Below are positions 6,535 through 48,865 of a stretch of DNA of 49,882 nt, piece after piece. The notes under the pieces were generated by a model. That model was not told the DNA's origin. It saw only the letters and a list, made by a program, of their open reading frames with translations, and made no database searches. The stretch comes from SAR324 cluster bacterium. GTDB lineage: Bacteria > SAR324 > NAC60-12. Location: positions 1-49,882 of the forward strand of contig JADFZZ010000036.1 of the NCBI GenBank assembly GCA_015232315.1, given 5' to 3'. Position 1 is the stretch's first letter. Each line of letters opens with the position of its first letter. The position numbers were made by a program, and so were the translations under genes.

Positions 6535-6692
6535 GTCATTCCTATTCGAGTTACACACATTTTCAAAAAATTGATTTTGCCAGTTACAGAAGCAAGGATC
6601 AAGCACTCGAAAAATGATTTGTAAAAACGCTTCAATAAATTAGAAAAATCTGAGCGCTGAAAGCTGAAAAATTACAACCTTTTAAATTGCTA

Positions 6693-6721
6693 TTGACCAA
6701 CCTGAATTAGACTTGTTATGA
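6693..6721 (+). promoter_or_regulatory. Sigma70-type promoter of decayed cytochrome copy
   Basis: TTGACC at 6693-6698 and TTATGA at 6716-6721 are separated by 17 bp. The same two boxes with the same spacing occur before the intact cytochrome gene at 10251-10279, while much of the spacer has diverged. Conservation of boxes against a changed spacer supports a real promoter. It could now drive the gene at 6996. Confidence 0.6.
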
Positions 6722-6773
6722 ACCACTAGAATCACTTTGGTTTTAATAAAAATTTTAGCAAGGAGACTATGCA

Positions 6774-6903
6774 ATGAAACAAGTTATTAAACTTATTAGA
6801 AAATCACTACTGGTAACAGCATGTCTGTGGAGATGAGCAATTTGAACAAAAACAGGAAGAACAGACTGTCTATAGAATAAACAGAGACGATTTAATCAAA
6901 TCA
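6774..6903 (+). pseudogene. Truncated 5' remnant of a cytochrome c' gene
   Basis: From the promoter at 6693 to about 6903 the DNA is clearly homologous to 10251-10470, the upstream region and 5' end of the cytochrome c' gene. The copy begins with ATG at 6774 and encodes 20 residues (MKQVIKLIRKSLLVTACLWR) before a TGA at 6834. About 30 bp of the signal-peptide region are missing relative to the intact gene. Recognisable sequence resumes ('EQKQEEQTV', 'INRDDLIK' equivalents) and ends near 6903. The four-helix bundle and heme site are absent. It is a decayed partial duplication, possibly left by a recombination event involving the 3.4-kb segment between the two copies. Confidence 0.85.
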
Positions 6904-6995
6904 GATTTCAGACAGAAATTTCTCTTTGGTACATCAAGACCCATACAGGTTGCTGGTGCAACCCATTATCACCATCATTTCATAAGGAGAACTCT

Positions 6996-8156
6996 ATGGA
7001 TAAACAGAAACTCGGCATTGGTGCTGCAATCATACTGATCCTGTTCATAGGATTTTATTTTTTTTTAGGCGAAGAACCTCCTCCTGAAGAAGTTGCGTCC
7101 GTAGTTCAAACACCACAATCGCCACCAATGCCTCCTGACGATGTAATTGTAAATGAAACAGAAGTGCCCAAATTGAAATTGGTGGACGATCCGACGCAGG
7201 CAGATACAGAATTGACTACTCCACCCAAGGACCATATGGCAGGAAAACCTGAAATAAAACAAAGGCTGGAAGAAATTGCTGCAGAATATGCTGAAAATCT
7301 GAAGATACCGGCATATTCACAAGTGATCGATGAAACAGCTCCTACCTTGAAACCTTATCAATTCAGACCCTACCAACGTCATTTTGGAAATTTCCAGTAT
7401 GATGTTGTATTGCCTAAAGCCAATTACTTTTATCCTGAAATAATCCCTTACAAATTCAGGATCTTCGCCAGCCAATCAGAACCTATTCCAGAAATTTTCA
7501 ATATAATTGCCGAAATATCTAATGAAACTGGTCTTGTTTTAGCTTCATTTGAGATTCCACAAACGACTAATGATGAGATGGAAAAAACGTATACTTTAGA
7601 CATTGCTCCACCTGCGGATGATAGCACTGCCTGGAGTGGTGAGCTTAAAATATTAACAAAATTTTTGGTAATGGGATATGGAGATAAAGCCTTGGTCACA
7701 CAAATTCAATATCAGGTTTCTGTAGGAGAAATTGTATCCATTGATGACACAACTGTTGAGGGACCTCATTTAATCATTCCTGTACACGTAAATGTTCCGA
7801 AACAGGCCCAATATAAATTAAGAGGGCATCTGTTCTCTCAGCAATCTGGTTTGCCGTTATTGCTGTTAGATGAAACACAATTATTGAATCAGGGCATGAA
7901 TACAGTGATGTTAAAAGCCCATATTTCTGGAATCAAATGGGTTAATGATGAAGGGCCATATCAATTGAAGTCGTTTATTCTCGAGCGCATGCCAGATGCA
8001 ATAAACAAAATCAGTTATGGTATGGGGAATACGGACAATGTCACATTTAATATTCCAGCTCATAGCTTCGATCAGTATAAAGATGAACCTTACAGTGATT
8101 CCGCAGAGCAACAAAAACTCCAAAGATTCCAGCAAATCATTCACAATATTAAATAA
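6996..8156 (+). CDS. Membrane-anchored periplasmic protein, unknown
   Basis: The 386-residue protein has one N-terminal hydrophobic anchor (about residues 7-24) followed by an acidic, proline-rich linker (about 26-85; 'EEPPPEE', 'SPPMPPDD') and a predicted beta-rich domain to the C-terminus. The topology predicts an inner-membrane anchor with the body in the periplasm. I do not recognise the family. Strand-like segments such as 'YDVVLPKANYFYPEIIPYKF' suggest immunoglobulin-like or similar sandwich folds. The ribosome site AAGGAGA lies 7-8 nt before the ATG. The gene is AT-rich compared with flanking chromosomal genes and probably forms a unit with the lipoprotein gene 240 bp downstream. Confidence 0.75.
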   Translation: MDKQKLGIGAAIILILFIGFYFFLGEEPPPEEVASVVQTPQSPPMPPDDVIVNETEVPKLKLVDDPTQADTELTTPPKDHMAGKPEIKQRLEEIAAEYAENLKIPAYSQVIDETAPTLKPYQFRPYQRHFGNFQYDVVLPKANYFYPEIIPYKFRIFASQSEPIPEIFNIIAEISNETGLVLASFEIPQTTNDEMEKTYTLDIAPPADDSTAWSGELKILTKFLVMGYGDKALVTQIQYQVSVGEIVSIDDTTVEGPHLIIPVHVNVPKQAQYKLRGHLFSQQSGLPLLLLDETQLLNQGMNTVMLKAHISGIKWVNDEGPYQLKSFILERMPDAINKISYGMGNTDNVTFNIPAHSFDQYKDEPYSDSAEQQKLQRFQQIIHNIK

Positions 8157-8397
8157 CAAAAATCTCAGACCATTTAATTTTTCACAGTTAAATTTTTTAA
8201 CTTTTTTTAGGATAAAAACAAAAAAATGTTATCACACCTAACAATTTGTTTTGAAATACATTATTTACAATTCACAACGAAAATCAGCTCAATCAGGAAA
8301 AAACCATTCACGACAAAAGACTGTAATAAATATAATATTTTAATTACGATCAACCCGTGTTCAACTGCAATTTATTAATTAACATTCAGGAGGCATT

Positions 8398-10125
8398 ATG
8401 AAAACTATAATTCGCTATCTAACAATTGGTGTTCTGGGATTTTCTGTAGCCCTGTCCGGTTGCCAACCACCACAGGAGGAGGATAATCATATCAATAATG
8501 ACGTGTCATCTGTTCAGATGGAATCAAAAAATTTAGATTTTGATTCCACGATGGAAACTCAACGTAACACGGTAGCACCTGACGTGATCTATATTGAGGG
8601 CTTCGGAAATTTTATGCATACCTCCAATGATAATAGTGGGAGTTCAATCATTCAAACCGTATTGAACTTTTTTATTAATACAGTGACTTCAATCACAGGT
8701 TCAACGTCAAGTGATTCTCAATTAGAAATGGCCAAACTATATTGGGGCGTATATAAATTAAATTTTAATCCAAGCATTTCTAAAGAGGCCCATCTGCATT
8801 GGGACTCCGGATATCGTTTTGACGCTATCGGCAGGGAGTTTACCTCCATAGCAGGTAATAAGTTCAATGCTACGCAATTATATGATAATTATGATTGTGT
8901 TGAAAGTTATATGGGGGCAACCAACAGTTCTCAAGATTCAGCGATCGATGTTTGTTCATCTGGAACCTATAATTCTGGTACAAAAGGGTTAATTACCAGG
9001 TTGAAAAATCTAATGGAAAACCAAGACACACGAGTAGGACAAAGTGGCACTTTTTGTGGCGACACCAATGGTTGTATTTTCATCACGCATTCAACTGGAG
9101 GTGGGGTCGCTGATGTGTTGCTGGCAGAGTTATATAAACATCGAACTGAAGCAGCTTATATGGTTAATGGCAAATCAATGTGGGAACGCATCAATTTTTC
9201 TCTTGAAATAGCGTCTGCATCCGGTGGAACTGGCTTGGCTTCATGGATTATTGATACGATTGCCAACCACGGTACCATTGATTTGATTGTGACCCAAGTG
9301 ACTTGTTCAGATACAGAACCCCTCATCCGCTTACTTTTCTCTCAATTCCGCTGTGGTCAACCAGGAAGTGAAGGTGCAGGATATAATCTTATTCCCGATA
9401 ATGCACGTAGAGCTACACTTTCAGGAAATCAACAAAATGATGGAAGAACCCCTGTACTCCATGTTGCCGGAAATGGTCACATTCTCTGGTTGGATTTATC
9501 TCTGCTTGGCTTTTCAATTTACGAAGGGGATCCTGTGATTGTAGATCATTTGAATTCGTATGAAAAATCCGCTAACCGTAATGATGGACTGGTCGGTCTT
9601 CATTCAGCCTGTGGATATAACAATACCTATGAGGTCACTAATTGTGTTGCAGGCTATGGTCTTTATACCAATCATCATCCGTTTATCTTAACTGAAGAAG
9701 GTCATCTCAGTCAGGTGATTCCAGGTGCCACCATGAAATCAATTGGAGGAAATGAGTATCTTTCAACTGTGGGATGGGTTCCTACTTCATCAAACTATAC
9801 AAAAGCTGTTACTACGGATGATGATAGTTCAACTGACGCAAAAAACTCTGCCAATAATAGTGCATTAACATCAACGCCAACATCTGCAGGAACATATAAT
9901 TTGCAAGTAAGAAATACGGTATCTGCTTCATTAGCAACCAAAACTGGGTCTAAATGTATTAATAAATTCATTGTATGTTTGGATTATGAATATTATTGGA
10001 ACGTTAATGGCACTCTGTCTGGTACAAATAGAATTTCTAATGATGATCAAAATCTTCCAAAAGTATTGCAAAGCATGGATTTATTAATGGAACGTGGTGA
10101 TGCGGGGGAAATGACTGTCCAGTAA
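8398..10125 (+). CDS. Lipase-like alpha/beta-hydrolase lipoprotein
   Basis: The 575-residue protein carries a lipoprotein signal peptide with lipobox 'ALSGC' (modified Cys22). A possible nucleophile elbow is 'FITHSTGGGVADVLL' with Ser232, resembling the lipase motif GHSxGG except that Thr replaces the first Gly. A second candidate triad element is 'NDGLVGLHSAC' with Asp396, resembling the 'NDGLVPVCSS' segment of bacterial triacylglycerol lipases, followed by His426/His427. This suggests an outer- or inner-membrane-attached esterase, but no overall family match is claimed. AGGAGG lies 5-6 nt before the ATG. The gene is AT-rich and Asn/Ser-rich, with a strong terminator after it. Confidence 0.65.
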   Translation: MKTIIRYLTIGVLGFSVALSGCQPPQEEDNHINNDVSSVQMESKNLDFDSTMETQRNTVAPDVIYIEGFGNFMHTSNDNSGSSIIQTVLNFFINTVTSITGSTSSDSQLEMAKLYWGVYKLNFNPSISKEAHLHWDSGYRFDAIGREFTSIAGNKFNATQLYDNYDCVESYMGATNSSQDSAIDVCSSGTYNSGTKGLITRLKNLMENQDTRVGQSGTFCGDTNGCIFITHSTGGGVADVLLAELYKHRTEAAYMVNGKSMWERINFSLEIASASGGTGLASWIIDTIANHGTIDLIVTQVTCSDTEPLIRLLFSQFRCGQPGSEGAGYNLIPDNARRATLSGNQQNDGRTPVLHVAGNGHILWLDLSLLGFSIYEGDPVIVDHLNSYEKSANRNDGLVGLHSACGYNNTYEVTNCVAGYGLYTNHHPFILTEEGHLSQVIPGATMKSIGGNEYLSTVGWVPTSSNYTKAVTTDDDSSTDAKNSANNSALTSTPTSAGTYNLQVRNTVSASLATKTGSKCINKFIVCLDYEYYWNVNGTLSGTNRISNDDQNLPKVLQSMDLLMERGDAGEMTVQ

Positions 10126-37045: not shown

Positions 37046-39790
37046 TTAAGGAAGTGCCATTAGGGGAAAGCCTGTTTTAATTTTGCAGGCGATCATGGTG
37101 ATATCATCATTAAACTGATCCTTGGAGCAAATCGACAGGATTTTCTGAAAAATTGTGTCAATGAGGACTTTTGGTGGCATCTGTTGATGGGCAAGCAAAC
37201 AATCCCGTAATTCAGTTTCACCAAATAAAATATGGCCGTTCTGGTGAATTTCAATGAGACCATCCGTAAAAAAGAACAGCAGGTCATCTTCCTGAAGTTG
37301 TAGCGTTTCATCGCAATATTCCATATGGGGATTTATTCCAAGGAAAGGACCCGGCATGTTACGTGGCAGTGGCATGAGTTTCTGCTGGCGAACCAGTTGA
37401 GGATATGGGTGTCCCGCATGAGAGTAAGTCATGAGGCCTGTCTCCAGATCGATTCGGGCAATGAAAAAAGTCATGAAATAATCATCAGGAAGCGTTTTGT
37501 GCATGATACTGTTGAGTTGACAATTGAGTTCTGACGGCTTGTACAGGGAATTGGTTTGTCGAGCTGTTGCTTCGAATTGGCGGATGGCACCATAGGCCAT
37601 CGCTGTGATCAGTGCAGACGGAGAGCCATGTCCAGAGACATCTCCAATCAGAATGTAAAGGTGATTCTGAAGTGTCATGAAGCCATACCAGTCACCCCCG
37701 GTTTCAGTGGCTGGATGGATGAGTCCATCAATATCCATAGTGGGAATGACTGGAAATTTTTGAGGATAGAGTAGTTTTTGCATGGTTGAAGCCATTTTCA
37801 ATTCAGTTTCCATTCGGCCTTTTTCAACCATTGCAATACTCATTTCCGCAAGGCGTATGTGCATTTGGACACGAGCGAACAGTTCATTTTTGACAAAGGG
37901 CTTGGAAATATAGTCGTTGGCTCCCGCGTTGAATCCTTCTATCAGATCATGAACCTGATTTTTTGCTGTCAGGAAAATGACGGGTAATTCATTGGGTGAA
38001 TAGAGGGAACGAATGCGACGGCAAACTTCAAAGCCACTCATGTGAGGCATCATCACATCAAGCAGAATCAGATCCAGTTGCGTGTTCTTAATAAGATCCA
38101 AGGCTTCCATACCACTGGTTGCAGTGTAAACCAGATAGTTTTGCATTGTCAGTTGGTTGACAATTACCTGAAGATTGACAGGTTCATCATCGACCACCAG
38201 GATGCTGGACAAGGGTTTCTGCTGTTCCAAAGGATTCAATGTTGCCGGGAGTGCCTCCAGAGAACCTTCCTGTAGAGTTATTTCAGCCAGATAGTTGTGT
38301 TTCTCATCAATCAGAACAGAGGGCTCCGCGAGTTCCTGTCGGGATGTGATCGGCAGCGAGAAGGAAAAGGTGGAGCCTTCGCCTTCTCGACTTTCTACCT
38401 TGATTTGACCACCATGGAGTTCCACCAGTTGACGACTGATTGTCAACCCCAGTCCACTTCCGCCAAAAATTCGGGCAATGGAACCATCGGCCTGCTCAAA
38501 TGATTTAAAAATACTTTCCAGTTTGGACTTGGGGATCCCTATTCCCGTATCGGTGACAAAGATCCATAGGTGTGACGCGTCCACTCTTGAGTGGATTGTG
38601 ATCGTACCAGTGGTGGTGAATTTGATAGCATTGCCGAGCAGATTCATCAGGATCTGTTCCAAACGATTTTCATCGGCTAAAACCCGTGGGAGATTGTGCG
38701 GCAATTGGTCCACGAGTTCCAGCGATTTGTTTAAGGTCATCGGTTGACAGAGGGTAAGTGCTACATCCAGTACACTTTTGATATCCAGTGTCTTGAGTTG
38801 CAATTGCAGATCATTCTGCTTCATCCTGGAAAAATCAAGGATGTCATTGACCAGATGGGAAAGGCGTTTGCCACTCTGCATGATCATGGAAAGATTGTGA
38901 TACTGAATCGGGGTGACGGCTCCGCCAATGCCATCCAGCAGGGATTCACTCAGTCCAATGATTCCGTTCAGTGGCGTGCGTAGTTCGTGGGAAGTATTGG
39001 CCAGAAACTCGTCTTTGAGCTGATCCAGTCGTTTGAGTTCTTTATTCTGCTGTTCAATCTGAAAGTACGAACTGGCCAACTCAGCAGACATCTGATTGAA
39101 ATGTCTGCTGAGTTCCCCTATTTCATCATCACTGCGAACCATTACTTTGACGCCCAGTTCTCCCGGAGTCATTGATTTCATGGTTTTATCAAGATAGGAA
39201 ATGGGATGGATAATGGTACGAAGCAGTATCATGTTCAGCAGGAACAGCATCAGGAGGAGAATTGAACAGAGCAATGCGCCAAACAGGATGAACGATAATT
39301 GCTGTTCCCAGGACACATCCCCCAGGGCATAGGTGATCTGGATAAAACCGATGCGCTCTCCAATGGCACGGATGTCCTGCAGATAATGCAGGTGAGGTTC
39401 AGCACCTGATTTATCAATTTCCAGATAATGTCCTGTGGTGAATTTCTGAATGTCTGCGGGTTTCAGATTTTCGTAAAGTGCATTGAGTCCTTCGTAAACC
39501 AGCAATTTCCCCTGGGCATCATAAACATAGATGGTCTTGATTCCGGGAACCTTGAGGAGCGCCTGAACCCTCAACTTGACGGCTTTGAGGCGTCCTTCAA
39601 AAATTTCATTGGCAAAACGATCCTGATCCCGTTCAACCACAGTCTGCAACAGCACTTCGATTTTATTCAACACAGTCTGGAAACGCCGTTGCTGGAAGGG
39701 AAGCTGAATGATGCTGAAAATGACAGCGATAGACAGAAATGTAACAAGAATCGCCCCATTCACTTTGTGTCGGAGTTTGAGGGGGCTCAT
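37046..39790 (-). CDS. Hybrid sensor kinase with receiver and PP2C/SpoIIE phosphatase output
   Basis: The 914-residue inner-membrane protein holds: TM1 (about 13-31), a periplasmic domain (about 32-160), TM2 (about 165-190), HAMP (about 192-245), HisKA with His268 ('NTSHELRTPLN'), HATPase (about 370-480, 'GTGIGIP'-type N, G boxes), a receiver with phosphoacceptor Asp578, and a C-terminal SpoIIE/RsbU-like PP2C phosphatase (about 665-905, 'ETGGDWYG', 'IGDVSGHGSPSA' with Asp717, 'FNDDITMIACK'). Kinase, receiver and phosphatase in one chain suggest control of a partner-switch (anti-anti-sigma) pathway or of another phosphoprotein by an external signal. The gene for a periplasmic binding protein lies 91 bp upstream on the same strand. 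Confidence 0.93.
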   Translation of the reverse strand: MSPLKLRHKVNGAILVTFLSIAVIFSIIQLPFQQRRFQTVLNKIEVLLQTVVERDQDRFANEIFEGRLKAVKLRVQALLKVPGIKTIYVYDAQGKLLVYEGLNALYENLKPADIQKFTTGHYLEIDKSGAEPHLHYLQDIRAIGERIGFIQITYALGDVSWEQQLSFILFGALLCSILLLMLFLLNMILLRTIIHPISYLDKTMKSMTPGELGVKVMVRSDDEIGELSRHFNQMSAELASSYFQIEQQNKELKRLDQLKDEFLANTSHELRTPLNGIIGLSESLLDGIGGAVTPIQYHNLSMIMQSGKRLSHLVNDILDFSRMKQNDLQLQLKTLDIKSVLDVALTLCQPMTLNKSLELVDQLPHNLPRVLADENRLEQILMNLLGNAIKFTTTGTITIHSRVDASHLWIFVTDTGIGIPKSKLESIFKSFEQADGSIARIFGGSGLGLTISRQLVELHGGQIKVESREGEGSTFSFSLPITSRQELAEPSVLIDEKHNYLAEITLQEGSLEALPATLNPLEQQKPLSSILVVDDEPVNLQVIVNQLTMQNYLVYTATSGMEALDLIKNTQLDLILLDVMMPHMSGFEVCRRIRSLYSPNELPVIFLTAKNQVHDLIEGFNAGANDYISKPFVKNELFARVQMHIRLAEMSIAMVEKGRMETELKMASTMQKLLYPQKFPVIPTMDIDGLIHPATETGGDWYGFMTLQNHLYILIGDVSGHGSPSALITAMAYGAIRQFEATARQTNSLYKPSELNCQLNSIMHKTLPDDYFMTFFIARIDLETGLMTYSHAGHPYPQLVRQQKLMPLPRNMPGPFLGINPHMEYCDETLQLQEDDLLFFFTDGLIEIHQNGHILFGETELRDCLLAHQQMPPKVLIDTIFQKILSICSKDQFNDDITMIACKIKTGFPLMALP

Positions 39791-39881: not shown

Positions 39882-40991
39882 TCATGGTGAAACAGTTTTT
39901 ATATAGACAGCATCTCCCTTTTCAAGTTTCAGAATGACTGCGGGTTTCACAGGATTACGGTTTTCATCAAAGGTGATTAATCCGGTAATTCCCCGGTATT
40001 GAGTGATCGCCAGGGCATCACGGATTTTTTTTCGATCAAGGGACTTAGCCTCACGAATGGCCTGAGCCAGAATCATGACAGAATCATAGGTCAACGGAAC
40101 AGTGGTTTGTTTGACAAGTCCATTCTTCGTTTCATATTTACCCACAAAAGTTCGGGATGCTGTATCAGGGGCATCCCTGTGCCAATGTGTGGTGTAATAG
40201 GTCCCGTCAATCAGATTTCCAATATAGTCATACATCCGGACTCCATAAGCGTCACCCCCCAGAAAGATGGCGGTAATGCCCATTTTACGGGCTTGTCCGA
40301 TCACCTGGGAGGAGTCGCGATAGTCTCCTGGCAGATAAATAATGTCAGGATTCATGGGTTTGGTTTTCTGGAGCAACTCTTCATAATTGGACACATCAAT
40401 CAGAAATTCTCCCTTCCATAGAATTTTGCCGCCTTGTTGTTCAAAACTCTGTATAAAAAATTCGGCGAGTCCGGTACTGTAGGTTCGATCTGTGTTCACC
40501 AGAACCACCGCTGTTTTAGCTTTGAGATCCTGAGTGGCAAAACGGGCCATGACTTTGCCCTGGAAAGGATCGGTATAGCAAACCCGGAAAATATAATCCC
40601 CCTCCAGCGTGACCTGAGGACTGGTGGAAATCGGGCTGATCAGTGGAATGCCTGCTGGTTGCAGAACGGATGCGGCACCGATAGAGTGTGAACTCCAGGA
40701 AGCTCCGATCATGGCGATAATCCCGTCATCGACAGCTTTTTTAGCCGCCATGCGAGAGCCAAGCGCTGTACTGTTGTTGTCATATTCAATCAGTTCCACG
40801 GGATGTCCCAACAAACCGCCTTGTTGATTGAGTGTTTCAGCCGCGTATTGAGCGGCTTCGAATAAAACAAGGTTGGTTGCCGCGGCATCCCCTGTCTTGG
40901 CCGCGATGACACCGATTTTCACAGGATCCGCCGCAATACCGGGAGTTGTAAGCATGAGCTGAAGCAAGAGCAGGAATGACAGAAATTTCAT
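39882..40991 (-). CDS. Periplasmic LivK-type substrate-binding protein
   Basis: The 369-residue protein has a Sec signal peptide (about 1-20, 'LMLTTPGIAA') and a type I periplasmic-binding fold of the Peripla_BP_6 group: 'KIGVIAAKTGDAAATNLVLFEAAQYAAETLNQQGG' read in sequence, 'GASWSSHSIGAASVLQPAGIPLISPISTSPQV', 'VVLVNTDRTYSTGLAEFF' and 'GLITFDENRNPVKPAV'. Such proteins bind amino acids, amides or small acids for ABC uptake, but no permease or ATPase is nearby. The downstream sensor kinase suggests a sensory use. I start at ATG 40991, which has GGAGG 6 nt upstream; the frame extends 87 nt further without support. Confidence 0.9.
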   Translation of the reverse strand: MKFLSFLLLLQLMLTTPGIAADPVKIGVIAAKTGDAAATNLVLFEAAQYAAETLNQQGGLLGHPVELIEYDNNSTALGSRMAAKKAVDDGIIAMIGASWSSHSIGAASVLQPAGIPLISPISTSPQVTLEGDYIFRVCYTDPFQGKVMARFATQDLKAKTAVVLVNTDRTYSTGLAEFFIQSFEQQGGKILWKGEFLIDVSNYEELLQKTKPMNPDIIYLPGDYRDSSQVIGQARKMGITAIFLGGDAYGVRMYDYIGNLIDGTYYTTHWHRDAPDTASRTFVGKYETKNGLVKQTTVPLTYDSVMILAQAIREAKSLDRKKIRDALAITQYRGITGLITFDENRNPVKPAVILKLEKGDAVYIKTVSP

Positions 40992-41173
40992 AAAGGCCTC
41001 CGGGAAAAATGTCACTTTGAAAACAAAGATAAAATACTCAATACCATCGCCAGTTAAAAGGTTTTTAGTAGAGGGCATCCAATCTTCTAAGGAACTTTCA
41101 AAAAATAACGAAGAGAGAACTCTTTAAGATCTTCAGTTTTAAAGATCCCTCACATTCGTTCTGAATGAGTGCG

Positions 41174-41222: not shown

Positions 41223-42713
41223 TTATGAGGAGCCTGATGGTATTCGAATTGTGAAGGTGGTGCCCTTGCCGACATCGCTTTTGACTGTAATGGTGCCTTT
41301 GAGTTCTTCCACAATTCCCCAGACAATGGGTAAGCCCAGGCCTGTGCCTTTGGTTCCTTTGGAGGTGTAAAACGGTTCAAATATTTTATGGATGCTTTCA
41401 TGGGGGATGCCGCATCCGCTATCGCTCACCTGGACCACAATATAGTTTTCTGTCGTGCTGGCTTCAGTAAACGACGTTAAGATGATTTCTCCCTGTGTGT
41501 CTTCAATCGCATCCATGGCATTTAAAATCAGGTTGATAAACAATTGCTGCAAATGATTGATATCAGCCATGATCAACGGCAAATTTTCTTCAAAATTTCT
41601 GGTGATCACAATGTGCTTTTTTTCCAGTTGGCTGGTAAGAATCACCAGTGAATGCTCCATGGCGTCATGAAGAGAACTCATTCCCTGTTTGGATGGAACA
41701 GGGCGCGCAAAATCCAGCAGATTTTTGACAATCTCCCGACACCTTTTGGTTTCACGGACAATGACCTCCAGATCGTCCCGACTTTCCTTGTCTTCAATAC
41801 GCTTGAGCAAATAACTGCTATAGCTCAACACCCCGGTGAGCGGGTTGTTGATTTCATGAGCCACACCAGCGGCCAGACGTCCAATCGACGCCAGTTTATC
41901 CGATTGATACAATTGTCGGTGAGCCTCAGACAATTTCTGGGTCATTTGATTGAACGATTGGGCCAGATTTCCCAATTCATCATTGGTGGTTGTCACTATT
42001 TGATAATTCAAATCGCCACCTGCGACGCGATGAGTGGCCTGAACAATCTGATTCACAGGTTTTCCGACCAGATGCTGCACCAGAAAAAACAGCACGCCAC
42101 TTACGATGAGGATGGTCCCTACAGCAAAAATCATCATCCGGACCTGATTGTCCTCGATTTGCGCATCGACCTCAGCGAGTGACAAGGTGATATCCAGGAT
42201 TCCCAACACTTTCTGACTTTCTTCATGAGCATGACAATCTGATTGCCAACAACTGGGTTCATTGTAAATTGGATTGATCATTCCCAAATTGCGAAGGTTG
42301 GCGGAAGTATTGAAAATGCGGGTTCTTTCTGGAACTGACAATCGAACCAAGGGCTGATCCGCGGCGTGACAGGCATCACACGCTTCTGCATCCATATCCA
42401 CTTCAGTATCCAGTTCCGATCTATCCGAAGAAAAAATAATTTCGCCGCTTTTATTGATAATGCGAACTTTCTCGATGCCTTTTTGTTTACCAATCGCCTC
42501 AAAGGTCTGATGCAACCGTTTGCGGTTTTTCACCAGCATGTCGTTCTGTGTGATATTTTTTACTGTTTCGCTGAGATGATGAGTGCTCAACTCCATTTGG
42601 GCCAGTAATTGTTCCCGTTGAGCATTGATCACCATGAAGGAAAAAATGGTGATACTTGCCATGATGGCACTTCCAACAGCCAGAATGAGTTTGACTCCGA
42701 TTTTACTGGTCAT
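41223..42713 (-). CDS. Heme-c-containing membrane histidine kinase
   Basis: The 496-residue kinase has TM1 (about 7-29), a periplasmic sensor (about 30-190), TM2 (about 192-213), HAMP (about 215-265), HisKA with His286 ('GVAHEINNPLTGVL') and HATPase ('DSGCGIP', 'GTKGTGLGLPIV'). The sensor carries a heme-c site CDACH (112-116) and a second, wider motif CWQSDCH (155-161, a CX4CH form). These could attach one or two c-type hemes and let the kinase sense redox state, O2 or NO. There is no receiver domain. It starts 3 bp after the NrfD-cytochrome gene stop, so it is the last gene of the redox operon and the probable partner of the receiver protein at 45.1-46.3 kb. Confidence 0.92.
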   Translation of the reverse strand: MTSKIGVKLILAVGSAIMASITIFSFMVINAQREQLLAQMELSTHHLSETVKNITQNDMLVKNRKRLHQTFEAIGKQKGIEKVRIINKSGEIIFSSDRSELDTEVDMDAEACDACHAADQPLVRLSVPERTRIFNTSANLRNLGMINPIYNEPSCWQSDCHAHEESQKVLGILDITLSLAEVDAQIEDNQVRMMIFAVGTILIVSGVLFFLVQHLVGKPVNQIVQATHRVAGGDLNYQIVTTTNDELGNLAQSFNQMTQKLSEAHRQLYQSDKLASIGRLAAGVAHEINNPLTGVLSYSSYLLKRIEDKESRDDLEVIVRETKRCREIVKNLLDFARPVPSKQGMSSLHDAMEHSLVILTSQLEKKHIVITRNFEENLPLIMADINHLQQLFINLILNAMDAIEDTQGEIILTSFTEASTTENYIVVQVSDSGCGIPHESIHKIFEPFYTSKGTKGTGLGLPIVWGIVEELKGTITVKSDVGKGTTFTIRIPSGSS

Positions 42714-42716
42714 TTG

Positions 42717-44306
42717 TTATTCTCCATTTTCTTCCTCGTGACAACTGTCACAATTGTCCGCTTCTTTGGTCACACCAAAGGACTCATTTTCATTCCCACT
42801 TCCGGTATGACATTTTCCGCACAGTTCACCCTTGTCCAGCATCTCATGGGTGATTGCGGGAACGTTAGTGATGATCACCAGACCGAACATGTCCACATGG
42901 CAGGGCTTGCAATCCGGTCGTTCCTGGTATTCATTGTGTTTCTCATGATCAAAGATGACCAGACCGGGACTGTCTTTGCCCGGAGGAAACTCAAACGGTG
43001 GGGGATATTCCAGTTTTTGTTCCAGGGGATTCACGGTACGGTTCAACAGGGCGGCTTGAGGAACCTGATGATTCAGCTCATTTTTTTTGGCCAGAGCCAG
43101 GGCAATCATAGCGATCAGCAACAGGCCCCACATGCCCAGCACCAGCCTGACAGAAAAGACGGGGTTTTTCTCATGAGCACTCAATGGCATTGTCTCCAGG
43201 TCTTCCAGGGGAAACACCGGAAAATTTTTGACCACAATGCTGAAAATTGTAAAACCCAACGTCACAATGGCGGTGGTGATGGCAATTTCTGTCCATTTGG
43301 GGAAGTAGGTTTCGGTATTCAACATGCCGGTAATGCTGACATTCAAACGTCCGAGAATAAATCCCAACAGCACCAGCAGGGCACAAAAAAACAATCCCCG
43401 TTCATTTTCCCGGATTTTAGGGATCAGCAACAATCCGACGGGTAGCATTGTGCCGAGTCCCAGTTCTCCCCAGAACAGCACACTTTCCTGGGTGAACTCA
43501 AACATCAGCGGTAAATTGCCACGGTGGGACAGGTCTTGTAATTTCAGCACCAGAAAGACACTCAGTACCACGACAATGACCCGGGAAATCCCGACCAAAA
43601 TGTCGAGTTCGATACGTTTGCCAAACGCCCGGTAACTCAGAAACGATTCAAAAATGGTCATGGCCAGTCCGGCGGCGATGGCCGTGATAAAGAAAAAAAC
43701 AGGCAAAAAGGGAGAGTACCAGAGGCCATGGAGTTTATCCGGAACAATGACATATAACGTTCCGAGCGAGGATTGATGCAGGGTGGAGAGAATGACACCC
43801 AGGATTACCACAGGCAGGTAAATTGCCCGAACCCATTTCAGAGGGACCTTCAGATTGAAACGTTCAAAGAATATCGGACTGAACTCCAGTGCCAGCACCA
43901 TGGTGTATAACGTGACACACCAGGCCACCTCGAACATCACCGAATGTGGATTCCACATGATGAGGGGATGCCAGATGCGATACGGGCGACCCAAATCAAA
44001 CAACAGCGCCACAATGACCAGGCTGTAGCCTAAAAAGGCGGTCAGGATGGTTGGACGGGCAATGGCTTTGTATTGTTCCAGATTAAAAATGTGAACAGTG
44101 GCCGCAATGATAAAGCCACCGGCGGCCAGACCGACGCCCACCATCACATCAAAGCCAATCCAGATTCCCCAGGGGAATTCATCGGACAAATTGGTGGAAG
44201 CCCCGAGCCCTTTTCCAAAGCGGAGAAAGGTCGCGTAAAGCCCGATGACATAAATGATTCCTGCTACCACGCGCCAGAAGGTTAATTGAGGCAGTTTCAG
44301 TTTCAT
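42717..44306 (-). CDS. NrfD/HybB-like quinone protein fused to c7-type triheme cytochrome
   Basis: The 529-residue protein begins with an NrfD/HybB-like integral membrane part of about 9-10 helices (residues 10-425; 'EFPWGIWIGFDVMVGVGLAAGGF', 'LLFDLGRPYRIWHPLIMWNPHSVMFEV' in two helices), which exchanges electrons with the quinone pool. After a proline-rich linker a C-terminal domain carries three heme-c sites: CKPCH 466-470, CGKCH 496-500 and CDSCH 519-523, with preceding 'FDHEKH' ligands and the layout of c7-type triheme domains. The ferredoxin encoded upstream is the expected partner. I start at ATG 44306 (GGAG 6-9 nt upstream); the 51 in-frame codons above it overlap the ferredoxin gene. 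Confidence 0.92.
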   Translation of the reverse strand: MKLKLPQLTFWRVVAGIIYVIGLYATFLRFGKGLGASTNLSDEFPWGIWIGFDVMVGVGLAAGGFIIAATVHIFNLEQYKAIARPTILTAFLGYSLVIVALLFDLGRPYRIWHPLIMWNPHSVMFEVAWCVTLYTMVLALEFSPIFFERFNLKVPLKWVRAIYLPVVILGVILSTLHQSSLGTLYVIVPDKLHGLWYSPFLPVFFFITAIAAGLAMTIFESFLSYRAFGKRIELDILVGISRVIVVVLSVFLVLKLQDLSHRGNLPLMFEFTQESVLFWGELGLGTMLPVGLLLIPKIRENERGLFFCALLVLLGFILGRLNVSITGMLNTETYFPKWTEIAITTAIVTLGFTIFSIVVKNFPVFPLEDLETMPLSAHEKNPVFSVRLVLGMWGLLLIAMIALALAKKNELNHQVPQAALLNRTVNPLEQKLEYPPPFEFPPGKDSPGLVIFDHEKHNEYQERPDCKPCHVDMFGLVIITNVPAITHEMLDKGELCGKCHTGSGNENESFGVTKEADNCDSCHEEENGE

Positions 44307-44358
44307 GGATTCTCCATCATCCAAAAAAGGTTGAAAGGAAACCTTGGGGGTCTGTTGT

Positions 44359-45135
44359 TTAAGGTGTTTTTTTCTGGTTTGAATCAGGAGACTTCGAATT
44401 ATTTTTTTTCTGTTCCTGTTCCAGTGTGATCCTGCGGTTGATAATCCACCAGAGGCCAAACATCATGACACCACCCACACCCGCCACACTGGGAATCTGG
44501 GAGAGAATATTCCAGGTGAGTTTGGGATAGGCTTCGTCACTTCGGGCATGTTTGAAGCCGAGTTGATCAAAGGGAATATCTGAAAGGTACAAGACCGAAG
44601 TCCCTCCGGCTTCATGAACTCCATAGATATGATTCACATATCGGTTCGGATGATTCTGGAGGCGCTGTTGAGCCTGGGCAATCAGTTGGTCGCGCTGACC
44701 AAAGACAGTGGCTCCGGTGGGACATACAGAAGTACAGGCTGGTTGTTCTCCGAGTGAAACGCGTTTTTGATAGCACATGATGCATTTTTGCACCCGTGGC
44801 AAAACACTGTCCCATTCATATTTTGGAATTTCAAAGGGACAGGCCATGATGCAGTAACGGCAGCCAATACAACGATCCTCATGATAAATGACCGGACCTT
44901 CCTGCGTTTTTTCCAGAGCTGTCACAGGACACACCGAAACACATGTGGGTTCCAGACAATGAAAACATTGATGGCGAATGAACACATCATGCCGTTTTTC
45001 TACCATCGTCCAGGTGGTGGCCGACAACTTGAGGGCGCCATCTTCTTTGGGTAACTCGTTTATTTCCTTGCATGCCAGCGCACAGGCCTGACAACCGATA
45101 CATCGGGTTAAGTCGGTGAGGATCGCGTAACTCAT
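44359..45135 (-). CDS. HybA/DmsB-like four-cluster ferredoxin with C-terminal membrane anchor
   Basis: The 258-residue protein has sixteen cysteines in four groups that fit four [4Fe-4S] clusters: C12-C15-C18-C22, C57-C60-C65-C69, C89-C92-C95-C99 and C118-C121-C134-C138. This is the electron-transfer subunit of complex-iron-sulfur molybdoenzyme or hydrogenase type. A single membrane helix near 213-231 ('VAGVGGVMMFGLWWIINRR') anchors it, as in HybA. No Tat or Sec leader is present at the N-terminus ('MSYAILTDLTRC'), so the clusters may face the cytoplasm. No molybdopterin or hydrogenase catalytic subunit is nearby. It lies 52 bp before the NrfD gene. Confidence 0.93.
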   Translation of the reverse strand: MSYAILTDLTRCIGCQACALACKEINELPKEDGALKLSATTWTMVEKRHDVFIRHQCFHCLEPTCVSVCPVTALEKTQEGPVIYHEDRCIGCRYCIMACPFEIPKYEWDSVLPRVQKCIMCYQKRVSLGEQPACTSVCPTGATVFGQRDQLIAQAQQRLQNHPNRYVNHIYGVHEAGGTSVLYLSDIPFDQLGFKHARSDEAYPKLTWNILSQIPSVAGVGGVMMFGLWWIINRRITLEQEQKKNNSKSPDSNQKKTP

Positions 45136-45145
45136 AGAGTATCTC

Positions 45146-46282
45146 CTACCTTAAAAATAAATTGCAAAACGCTTCCCATGTTTTTTCATTCATAGGGACA
45201 TTGGTTGTGGCTTCCTTGTTTTGAGTAGCGGGATCATTGACAAGCAACTTTTGAAAACGGTCAATTTCCTCCTGATACCAGGAGGTGGCGGCCCCGCCAA
45301 TTTTTAATGTTTGCAGTTCTTCTGGCAAATTTTGTGGTTCGATTCGACAAATCCAGCCCAATTCATAGGGATTCATGTTGAGGTACTCCAGGTGTTCCGT
45401 CAATTCACTGTTGACCAGGGCGACCTGACCACTGATAGGTGCTGTGATTTGGGCGGTTTTGTTACCTTGACGGATAGTAAAGAGCAGATCTCCTTTCTTG
45501 AAAAAAGTACCTTCTACAGGTAATTCAAGGCCATCCACTTCCCCAATGATTTTTTGAACAAAATCATCAATTCCCATGCGCACCATCCCATTGAGTTCAA
45601 TCTGCATCCAGGTATGTTTGGGAGTGATAAACAAGCCTGTAGGAATATTGATTTCATATTTTTGGGAGGAAGCTCCCTGAGATGGCGTTACCAGATGGAC
45701 TGTCGGTCTTCGTTCGCGCTCAATACGATCCTGTCGCCGAATCAGTGTCTTGTTCACAAAAGCCACCAACTCATCTTCCGTGAATGGTTTTTGTACATAA
45801 TCCATCGCGCCATGTTTCATGGTTTCCACTGCGGATTCAATGGTGGCGTAACCCGTAATCATAATGACATCCACATCTGGACGGAAGTGCTTGACGGCCT
45901 TGGTAACGTCCAAACCGTTCATATCCGGCATTTTGAAGTCAGTGAATACAAAGTCATAATTGTTTTTCTGAACCAGCCCCAGGGCTTCCTGGCCGGTTTC
46001 TACCGTATCGATGGAGTAGCCGGCCATGACCAGTATTTTGCGGAAACTATCCAATACAATCTGTTCATCATCGACAGCCAGAATCCAGGCTTTGGGGTTG
46101 CTGACCTCAACACGTTTCAGACTTTTAGCCTCATCGGTGAATTCAAGGCGTAGTCCAACATACAGTGCGTTTTCCCGTTCACTTTTCAATTTTGCATTCT
46201 GTCTTTTCTGAATCAAAAGTCGCACCAGAACATCAGCGGTGATAAACAGCACACACATGAGAATGACTACGAGGACAGCCAT
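45146..46282 (-). CDS. Membrane-anchored receiver domain fused to GcvH-like domain
   Basis: The 378-residue protein has an N-terminal helix (about 2-24), a canonical receiver domain (about 66-180; D71/D72, phosphoacceptor Asp115 in 'FVFTDFKMPD', Lys165 in 'YVQKPF') and then a glycine-cleavage H-protein-like domain (about 212-315; 'LFITPKHTWMQIELNGMVRMGI', 'LPVEGTFFKKGDLLFTI', 'APISGQVALVNSEL', 'YELGWICRIEP'). The lipoyl-lysine position (8 before the Pro of APISG) is Asn274, with Lys275 next to it, so lipoylation is doubtful. No DNA-binding domain is present. It is the first gene of the redox operon, 10 bp before the ferredoxin gene. Confidence 0.9.
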   Translation of the reverse strand: MAVLVVILMCVLFITADVLVRLLIQKRQNAKLKSERENALYVGLRLEFTDEAKSLKRVEVSNPKAWILAVDDEQIVLDSFRKILVMAGYSIDTVETGQEALGLVQKNNYDFVFTDFKMPDMNGLDVTKAVKHFRPDVDVIMITGYATIESAVETMKHGAMDYVQKPFTEDELVAFVNKTLIRRQDRIERERRPTVHLVTPSQGASSQKYEINIPTGLFITPKHTWMQIELNGMVRMGIDDFVQKIIGEVDGLELPVEGTFFKKGDLLFTIRQGNKTAQITAPISGQVALVNSELTEHLEYLNMNPYELGWICRIEPQNLPEELQTLKIGGAATSWYQEEIDRFQKLLVNDPATQNKEATTNVPMNEKTWEAFCNLFLR

Positions 46283-47050: not shown

Positions 47051-48865
47051 ATGGACAAAATAGTTTTATATGGAAATCTTCTGAGTGATATCAAACGTCG
47101 GATACGTCAGGCTCAGGCAAAAGCTGTATTATCGGTCAATTCAGAGATGATATGGATGTATTGGGATATCGGACGAATCATTTTGGAACGCCAACAAGAA
47201 GAAGGCTGGGGAGCCGGAGTGATTCCCCGATTATCCAGAGATATCCGCAATGAATTGCCTGAACAAAAGGGATTTTCAGAACGAAATATTGGTAGAATGA
47301 TCGCATTTTTTCGAGAATACCCCGATCCGCAATCAATTTTGCCACAGCCTGTGGCAAAATTAACGGAGCATTCCATTTTAAGTAATATTCCGTGGGGACA
47401 TCATGTGCTTCTGATGGAAAAAATCAAAGATAGAACGATCCGTTTCTGGTATATGGAACAAATCATCACAAACGGCTGGAGCCGTGAGACCCTTTCCTCC
47501 ATGATAAAAAATGATCGGCATCACCGACAGGGGCAGTTGGTTCATAACTTTGATAAAACTTTACCACAGCCTCAATCGGAGATGGTACGACAATCCTTAA
47601 AAGATCCCTATATTTTTGACTTTCTGACCATATCGGAACCGTTTGTGGAACGGGAACTGGAAACAGAACTCATCAGGCATCTTGAAAAATTTCTGATAGA
47701 GTTGGGAGCTGGATTTGCTTTTGTCGGCAGACAATACAAATTGACGGTGACCGACCAGGATTTTTTTATTGATCTGTTGTTTTATCATTTGAAGCTGCGG
47801 TGTTTCGTAGTGATTGATCTTAAAAAAGGTGCCTTCAAACCCGAAGGGGATTCAAGAGACTGCCGATTTGAGTCTTCCCCCCCACACAACGGAGTGACAA
47901 TGTACCCTCATACCGACCCTATTATCATTGCCCTGGATATTGATGATTTCCTAACCCATCATGAATCAAAATCTTTACGGGAAAGAGATTGGCGGGATCC
48001 TGTACATCACCATGAAGACCATTTCATCAGGGTGGAATTCCCTTATCGTGATCATCTGGTTCAGGTTGAACATGTGCTCACCCCTGCGTGTCTCGAATTT
48101 TTCAGGTTCCTGTTTGAACATGAAACAATCCGCGTGGCTTTTTTCAGTTCCGGTATTCGCGAAAGAAATCTTGATCTGGCCCAAAAGATTGTGCGGAAAG
48201 TCATGGAAAAAGACGGTGATTCCACCTGGATACAACGCTATGATGTGTATTCTCGTGAAGACTGTTTTGATACAGAAAGGCTCCGATTTCGTGTGGAAGA
48301 AAAAATCATGAACCAATTTCAGCCCAAACATTTTATGGGGAACCTTAAAAAGGATCTGCGCATGATATCCTGGGGCCGAGAAAAATATCAGGAATTGTAT
48401 CAACAAACGTTTCAGGACCCTTGGGTGCTTCTGCCTGATCCGGAAAAAGATAAAAATCTGCTAACCAATCTGATTCTGATCGAGGAGGATCCTTCCTATT
48501 TGTTCCCTGGTCAGGAAAAACATTTGTTGTTGAGCCCCACTTATAATCTTCCTTATCCGTATTTGATCAATTACCAGAAAGAGGACATGCCTTATGTCCC
48601 GGACGACTGGCGGAACCAGTTCAAATCCTTCAACACCATTTTTTATGCTGCGGGCCTGTTAAACCACATTCTGGAACGACATGTTTCAGAAGGCATTTCC
48701 TTACCTGAAATCCTGTGGCAGGCACAAAGAGACTTCTGGTTGGATCCTACAAATTACAAGGGACGTTATCCTCTCCATTTTTTCACCCAGGGCCGGGAGA
48801 TTCTGCGAAAATATAATCCCTCATTAAACTTCGCCGTTGCTTCCTCAAAACCTGGTTCTCAATAA
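47051..48865 (+). CDS. Chimeric ORF: truncated DUF1016 nuclease joined to HAD-like protein
   Basis: One open frame of 604 codons. Residues 1-265 match DUF1016/YhcG-type PD-(D/E)XK nucleases: N-terminal 'SVNSEMIWMYWDIGRIILERQQ', 'GFSERNIGRMIAFFREYP', then the catalytic region 'FFIDLLFYHLKLRCFVVIDLKKGAFKPE' read across strands. The family continues after 'KPE' with a conserved tail of 80-100 residues, which is missing. Instead about 18 low-complexity residues follow and then a different protein with its own start at 47900. The nuclease part therefore looks truncated by a deletion or insertion that happened to keep the frame. Whether a fused protein is made is unknown. The ribosome site at 47051 is weak. 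Confidence 0.7.
   Translation: MDKIVLYGNLLSDIKRRIRQAQAKAVLSVNSEMIWMYWDIGRIILERQQEEGWGAGVIPRLSRDIRNELPEQKGFSERNIGRMIAFFREYPDPQSILPQPVAKLTEHSILSNIPWGHHVLLMEKIKDRTIRFWYMEQIITNGWSRETLSSMIKNDRHHRQGQLVHNFDKTLPQPQSEMVRQSLKDPYIFDFLTISEPFVERELETELIRHLEKFLIELGAGFAFVGRQYKLTVTDQDFFIDLLFYHLKLRCFVVIDLKKGAFKPEGDSRDCRFESSPPHNGVTMYPHTDPIIIALDIDDFLTHHESKSLRERDWRDPVHHHEDHFIRVEFPYRDHLVQVEHVLTPACLEFFRFLFEHETIRVAFFSSGIRERNLDLAQKIVRKVMEKDGDSTWIQRYDVYSREDCFDTERLRFRVEEKIMNQFQPKHFMGNLKKDLRMISWGREKYQELYQQTFQDPWVLLPDPEKDKNLLTNLILIEEDPSYLFPGQEKHLLLSPTYNLPYPYLINYQKEDMPYVPDDWRNQFKSFNTIFYAAGLLNHILERHVSEGISLPEILWQAQRDFWLDPTNYKGRYPLHFFTQGREILRKYNPSLNFAVASSKPGSQ
47900..48865 (+). CDS. HAD-like protein with internal start (probable native gene)
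   Basis: An in-frame ATG at 47900 with GGAG 6-9 nt upstream begins a protein of 321 residues that is probably independent of the DUF1016 fragment before it. Near its N-terminus 'IIALDIDDFL' offers the paired aspartates of HAD hydrolases (Asp13, Asp15). 'VAFFSSGIRERN' resembles motif II, and 'NLKKDLRMI' with 'LILIEEDPSYLFPGQ' resembles motifs III and IV of NIF/FCP1-like members. The C-terminal third ('WQAQRDFWLDPTNYKGRYPLHFF' in two helices) is unfamiliar. A phosphatase role is inference. Confidence 0.6.
   Translation: MYPHTDPIIIALDIDDFLTHHESKSLRERDWRDPVHHHEDHFIRVEFPYRDHLVQVEHVLTPACLEFFRFLFEHETIRVAFFSSGIRERNLDLAQKIVRKVMEKDGDSTWIQRYDVYSREDCFDTERLRFRVEEKIMNQFQPKHFMGNLKKDLRMISWGREKYQELYQQTFQDPWVLLPDPEKDKNLLTNLILIEEDPSYLFPGQEKHLLLSPTYNLPYPYLINYQKEDMPYVPDDWRNQFKSFNTIFYAAGLLNHILERHVSEGISLPEILWQAQRDFWLDPTNYKGRYPLHFFTQGREILRKYNPSLNFAVASSKPGSQ

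Follow-up and report, generated by a model that had tools for sequence, protein, structure and literature searches.

The gene at positions 45146..46282 (minus strand) encodes a 378-amino-acid protein, here called TM-REC-GcvH, and is the first gene of an operon in the window (the whole 49,882-nucleotide stretch that was analysed). The remaining operon genes follow in the same direction on the minus strand: an HmcB/HybA-like 4Fe-4S protein (44359..45135), a NrfD/HmcC-like quinone-type membrane protein (42717..44459) and a membrane histidine kinase (41223..42713). The Fe-S protein has a C-terminal membrane helix, lacks a Tat signal and matches the NCBIfam HmcB model at 1e-76; an in-frame stop lies closely upstream of its start. 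The NrfD protein, whose true start is likely near 44306, matches Pfam NrfD (1.1e-26) and HmcC (9e-97), and a triheme cytochrome c7 domain is fused to its C-terminus (42735..42959, minus strand; three CXXCH motifs; Cytochrome_C7, 1.3e-9; TIGR04257, 9.8e-11, over cut-off). The HmcB and HmcC scores (258 and 325 bits) are under the equivalog cut-offs (420 and 550), and by this measure the two proteins are relatives, not members, of the Hmc complex. We found no acyl- or aminomethyl-transfer gene in the operon and no glycine cleavage genes beside TM-REC-GcvH: the neighbours are electron-transfer and signalling genes.

The kinase has a periplasmic Cache-like domain with HAMP, HisKA and HATPase domains. 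Two heme-c motifs are present in its sensor domain, CDACH (residues 112-116, 42366..42380, minus strand) and CWQSDCH, of the CX4CH type (residues 155-161, 42231..42251, minus strand), and both are found in 20/20 aligned kinases; the protein is thus a predicted c-heme sensor kinase. The sensor model is Cache-like, with WalK and the c-heme sensors GSU0935 and GSU0582 as its nearest matches. The window kinase resembles these two sensors (sCache_heme/DUF3365, PMC12889525) in its Cache-like model and CXXCH motif, but its second motif, CX4CH, is invariant. It has no Pfam DUF3365 match at E <= 0.1, and its assignment to the DUF3365/sCache_heme (heme-Cache) family was therefore rejected. Behind a periplasmic binding protein gene (39882-41078) lies a gene (37046-39790) for a large hybrid protein in which HAMP, histidine kinase, receiver and SpoIIE phosphatase domains form a single chain; it may prolong the same operon.

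The TM-REC-GcvH open reading frame is intact, and its coordinates and strand were verified. A single strong hydrophobic helix is present at the N-terminus (residues 1-26, 46205..46282, minus strand; Kyte-Doolittle hydropathy of 2.9 over residues 2-20; helix 2-45 in the structure model), with no segment at or above 1.0 past residue 60, and the positive flank behind the helix suggests that the bulk of the protein is cytoplasmic. The receiver domain (residues 67-176, 45755..46084, minus strand; Pfam PF00072, 5.3e-31) has the acidic pair, phospho-acceptor Asp, Thr/Ser and Lys of a receiver: D71, D72, D115 (the phospho-acceptor), T143, Y162 and K165 are present and are identical in 38/38 homologues. 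The third part is a lipoyl-free GcvH-fold (barrel-sandwich hybrid) domain (residues 220-328, 45299..45625, minus strand), which matches Pfam GCV_H (PF01597) at 4.4e-21, well over the cut-off. PDB sequence matches fall on separate stretches, to receivers (NtrC1, 1.6e-22) and to H-proteins (pea, 1.7e-16), and no DNA-binding domain was found in Pfam and NCBIfam profile searches. An AlphaFold2 model built with 17 sequences has a mean pLDDT of 78; in the GcvH part, most values lie between 80 and 94. Foldseek returned H-protein structures as its top matches, with receivers second; against the E. coli H-protein, the model has a TM-score of 0.91 (to target), an rmsd of 1.4-1.9 A and approximately 29% identity. 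An initial sequence-only reading had described a helix joined to a receiver with all of its acidic and Lys residues and then to an H-protein fold, and had proposed structural comparison with GcvH; the profiles, the hydropathy plot and the model, with its H-protein match, all bear this fusion out.

That reading had also claimed that no clear lipoyl lysine is present, and this proved correct. The hairpin strands in the model span residues 266-272 and 275-280, so that the turn is G273-N274, the place of the lipoyl lysine in GcvH; the hairpin tip as a whole is G273-N274-K275 (45458..45466, minus strand). When a domain profile was aligned to all GcvH-like domains of the fetched loci, N274 fell on a column that is Lys in 13/13 stand-alone short GcvH proteins (open reading frames grouped by length only, among them the same genome's own canonical GcvH on contig C24), and K275 fell on the next column. 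In place of the acidic ESV found before the lysine of ordinary GcvH, the window protein has RQG. Among 39 distinct receiver-GcvH proteins of the TM-REC-GcvH type (the window protein and 38 others), the lipoyl column is N in 11, H in 8, G in 6, K in 6 and other residues in the rest. The column that follows is R in 24, K in 9, H in 3, Q in 2 and Y in 1, and is thus basic in 36/39. Lysine on the lipoyl column is similarly rare in related groups: it is found in 0/34 soluble receiver-GcvH relatives with a residue there, 1/17 receiver-less membrane GcvH-like proteins (16 listed, plus that of locus L090, which automatic grouping had placed in the Lys group) and 1/13 Cys-rich GcvH-like proteins. The missing lysine is, by these alignments, a property of the family and not a local oddity.

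Lipoyl ligases require a lysine precisely at the tip position. The sequence-only reading had raised a shifted lipoylation site at K275, which would carry electrons or acyl groups in a phosphorylation-controlled manner; the lysine on the lipoyl column of some relatives could be considered for the same role. The genome does encode LipA (4e-122), two proteins of the LipB/LplA/BPL family and a canonical GcvH, and the 6/39 proteins with Lys on the exact column would suit such a scheme. The position of K275, however, is Arg in 24 of the 38 homologues, Lys in 8 and one of His, Gln and Tyr in the other 6, N, H and G predominate on the lipoyl column, ESV is not retained and the operon lacks a transfer enzyme. 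We consider shifted lipoylation very improbable, and at K275 it was rejected on homologue conservation; a conserved lysine at the exact lipoyl position, the finding that would have spoken against a lipoyl-free domain, was looked for in the homologues and is absent. As the genome makes lipoate, a missing pathway is not the reason for the loss of the site. In a tree of GcvH domains (116 columns), canonical and lipoyl-free proteins split on one branch with a weak support of 53, and lysine was part of the basis on which the canonical sequences were chosen; for both of these reasons, a single loss of the lipoyl site is likely rather than shown. Of the features of a functional H-protein, the window protein has the fold and the profile match and lacks the lipoyl lysine and the association with glycine cleavage.

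Conservation lies elsewhere in the domain. Outside the receiver, H223, W225, D239, D240, P282, C312, I328 and G329 are identical in 38/38 other family members, a pattern that points to selection on the GcvH-like domain for something other than lipoate. The alternative in the sequence-only reading, a lipoyl-free protein-binding module, gains support from these conserved positions, from a lipoyl column that is not conserved and from a lysine loss common to the receiver-bearing soluble, membrane-only and Cys-rich relatives. Cys312 (45347..45349, minus strand) could in principle make the domain a thiol redox switch or a small-ligand site, with the receiver as a second input. Its invariance and the redox-related character of the operon are in keeping with such a role, but it is a lone cysteine in a predicted C-terminal strand (310-316), where it may be merely buried, and the receiver-less relatives examined differ there (GWIVRV, GWVAIV); we regard this as improbable.

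Full-length relatives of TM-REC-GcvH were found at 34 other loci, 15 from a contig scan and 19 from the 296 genomes searched in one phylum (around G063), giving 35 loci with the window. In that phylum, 27/296 genomes have matches at E <= 1e-25, 20 of which span the receiver-GcvH junction and 7 of which cover GcvH only; the corresponding counts are 3/150 genomes in the phylum around G057 and 1/249 in that around G061. Among 52 genomes of its own phylum, the full-length form is found solely in the window's genome. This patchy distribution would fit horizontal transfer; the labels of relatives such as Xanthomonadales and Opitutaceae derive from metagenome bins, in which mis-binning is possible. 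A lost lipoyl site and a single occurrence in 52 genomes are also what would be expected of a decaying gene, a degenerate GcvH copy accidentally fused to a receiver, but the frame is open, the receiver catalytic residues are intact, the operons are conserved, and relatives across several phyla share 47-58% identity with invariant residues in both domains. This pattern refutes a pseudogene or accidental fusion, which we rejected as scarcely credible.

The gene neighbourhood is conserved as well (cassette genes were counted by tblastn; open reading frame listings missed some genes at GC-rich loci, as at L091). A gene for a histidine kinase with the diheme motifs (CXXCH and CX4CH) is present at 35/35 loci, in several phyla, and HmcB/HybA-like Fe-S and NrfD/HmcC genes at 30/35, or 30/31 of those with enough flanking sequence. 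At four of the five loci that lack the Fe-S and NrfD genes, the contig ends beside the kinase; at the fifth, L010, the regulator and kinase are present and no Fe-S or NrfD gene was found in approximately 18 kb upstream and 8 kb downstream. L010 has a tandem pair of membrane receiver-GcvH genes with the diheme-motif kinase at 6598-9164. The usual layout, cassette A, is Fe-S protein (with Tat signal), NrfD, 13-heme cytochrome, kinase, soluble receiver-GcvH and membrane receiver-GcvH. Cassette A often adjoins 16- and 19-heme cytochrome genes; at L093, L095-L097, L099 and L102-L105 it lies beside clusters of cytochrome genes with 16, 19 and 4 hemes, which suggests a connection with extracellular electron transfer. 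Most cassettes encode two receiver-GcvH proteins and further GcvH paralogues. The window and L091, its relative of closest architecture, keep the regulator and complex genes and lack both the second receiver-GcvH protein and an NtrC gene. L091 shares the window gene order with a separate pentaheme cytochrome gene, and the NrfD-c7 fusion of the window therefore looks like a compact form. Most of the relatives' kinases (L003, L006, L012, L017, L092-L109 and others) are 605-631 amino acids long; their catalytic domain is interrupted, between the N and G boxes, by an insert of approximately 130 amino acids that bears zinc-ribbon motifs of the CPxC type. This insert is missing from the kinases of the window (496 amino acids), L004 and L091.

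Matches that cover only the GcvH part proved to be membrane GcvH-like proteins of 230-250 amino acids with no receiver. Their genes belong to a sister arrangement, cassette B: in 6/6 such loci the membrane GcvH-like gene is followed by an Fe-S gene without a Tat signal and then by NrfD. Further along the cassette are genes for a Cys-rich GcvH-like protein, a related kinase that has the diheme motifs, an activator of the NtrC type and an M54 peptidase; it is complete at 4 loci. The Fe-S proteins without a Tat signal form an HmcB/HybA-like subfamily (window 44359-45135, L086-L090 and L017) with a C-terminal membrane helix and a positive tail. The Cys-rich N-terminal GcvH-like proteins (CxWxxxG...C...C..C) are found at L057, L059, L006, L110, L118, L119 and L121; they co-occur with a kinase/NtrC pair and an M54 archaemetzincin, also in genomes of the window's own class, and no literature link between GcvH-like proteins and this peptidase was found among open-licence papers.

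The window cassette is predicted to be a mosaic of the two. Its Fe-S protein groups with the cassette B set and the L017 copy at a support of 99, with the caveat that the window and L017 sequences are long branches, and its NrfD protein is closest to cassette B by both path and identity. Its kinase and regulator, in contrast, belong to cassette A by tree and identities. Because the Fe-S protein is of B type and the regulator and kinase of A type, the receiver-bearing GcvH protein appears to fill the slot of the receiver-less one. No other observation points as strongly as this swap to joint action of the GcvH-like domain with the Fe-S/NrfD proteins and to a receiver that contributes control by phosphorylation; the receiver-less gene directly preceding Fe-S/NrfD also points to a binding partner for the proposed protein-binding module.

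The reading that we favour, which we hold to have about an even chance of being right, is a two-component system that senses redox state and is coupled to a membrane complex for electron transfer, with docking of a lipoyl-free GcvH domain controlling this adjacent complex. The kinase, with its two periplasmic heme-c motifs, would probably read the redox state or a ligand (e.g. NO) of the periplasmic cytochrome pool. It would most likely phosphorylate Asp115 of the membrane-anchored receiver-GcvH protein, a pairing that we infer because the operon offers no other plain candidate. The regulator is tied to the membrane, has an invariant receiver, is accompanied by the kinase at every locus and lacks a DNA-binding domain, which makes protein binding, at the membrane, the likely output. 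The GcvH-fold domain would provide that output as a lipoate-free docking surface, its hairpin tip remade as a basic loop, and would meet the neighbouring Fe-S/NrfD(-cytochrome c7) complex on its cytoplasmic side. Docking would change on phosphorylation, and in this way the passage of electrons among quinones, the Fe-S protein and the cytochromes of the periplasm may be tuned, in whichever direction, without transcription. More broadly, a GcvH-derived family may have lost lipoate and turned into regulatory subunits, some in the membrane and some soluble, of an Hmc/NrfD-type respiratory complex. In the receiver-bearing branch, the kinase would then act on respiratory electron flow directly, through phosphorylation of a subunit of the complex or of its docking partner, with expression unchanged; we advance this extension with slightly less than even confidence.

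Some of the evidence weighs against direct control of the complex. Most of the relatives' Fe-S subunits have a Tat signal and are predicted to be periplasmic, so that a cytoplasmic GcvH domain could there touch only NrfD or the Fe-S tail. The two receiver-GcvH proteins and extra GcvH paralogues in most cassettes suggest more than a simple gate, gene linkage speaks for shared function, not contact, and L010 has the regulator and kinase but no Fe-S/NrfD genes in the flanks covered. TM-REC-GcvH may instead be a docking platform that brings some other partner to the membrane (a factor for assembly or maturation, a transcription factor or the second receiver-GcvH protein), with regulation through assembly or expression. 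A second, soluble receiver-GcvH protein beside the regulator in most cassettes makes hetero-oligomers plausible, and the sister cassette, with its NtrC-type activator and its Cys-rich GcvH protein, shows that kinases of this family are also paired with a transcription factor. Such a platform is possible but rather unlikely: in the window and L091 the regulator stays with the complex genes even though the second receiver-GcvH protein and NtrC are missing, and it is specifically Fe-S/NrfD that the membrane GcvH-like gene adjoins.

Compared with known systems, the domain matches the GcvH fold (PF01597) along its entire length and with a clear profile match. It differs from GcvH in lacking the lipoyl lysine, in its fusion to a receiver and membrane helix, in not lying beside gcvT/gcvP, and in the family-specific invariant D239-D240, C312 and basic hairpin tip. 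LbpA of the sHdr sulfur-oxidation pathway is likewise a GcvH-like protein outside glycine cleavage, with a dissimilatory redox role, but it carries lipoate (PMC6067878), whereas TM-REC-GcvH has no lipoate attachment site; no Hdr genes were seen in its operon. Of the NCBIfam models, HmcB fits the window Fe-S protein best and HmcC the NrfD protein, and many relatives' cassettes add a 13-heme cytochrome to this Hmc/HybAB-type core. The window operon departs from Hmc/HybAB in scores far under the equivalog cut-offs, in the added GcvH-like proteins and diheme-motif kinase, and in the cytochrome c7 fused to NrfD. In D. vulgaris, a response-regulator gene, rrf1, likewise lies in the hmc region. The N-terminal barrel-sandwich hybrid domain of NqrA (PF05896) is another lipoate-free fold of the lipoyl type that belongs to a respiratory complex, but it differs in protein context and has no receiver; the relative at L094 has a weak NQRA_N match (1.2e-4, below cut-off).

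Each component is already known: receivers, the GcvH fold, complexes of the NrfD type and heme sensors. The combination of these four and a lipoyl-free GcvH domain as the output of a regulator were not found described among the open-licence papers that could be searched, an absence that is not proof of novelty. Two-component systems usually target transcription or motility; if the favoured reading is true, a heme-motif kinase and a lipoate-free receiver-GcvH protein would give direct phosphorylation control of respiration, and the H-protein fold would gain a second role as a regulatory module. The relatives come from several phyla, many of them near multiheme cytochrome clusters of the extracellular-electron-transfer kind, and such genes should not be annotated as glycine cleavage proteins.

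Outside the operon, the window contains a YhcG/DUF1016 gene (47051-48865) with an internal junction that encodes CRFESSPPH, recalling a tRNA T-arm (no tRNA is called there). At this junction, the nuclease domain ends at profile position 86/157 and is followed by unrelated sequence.
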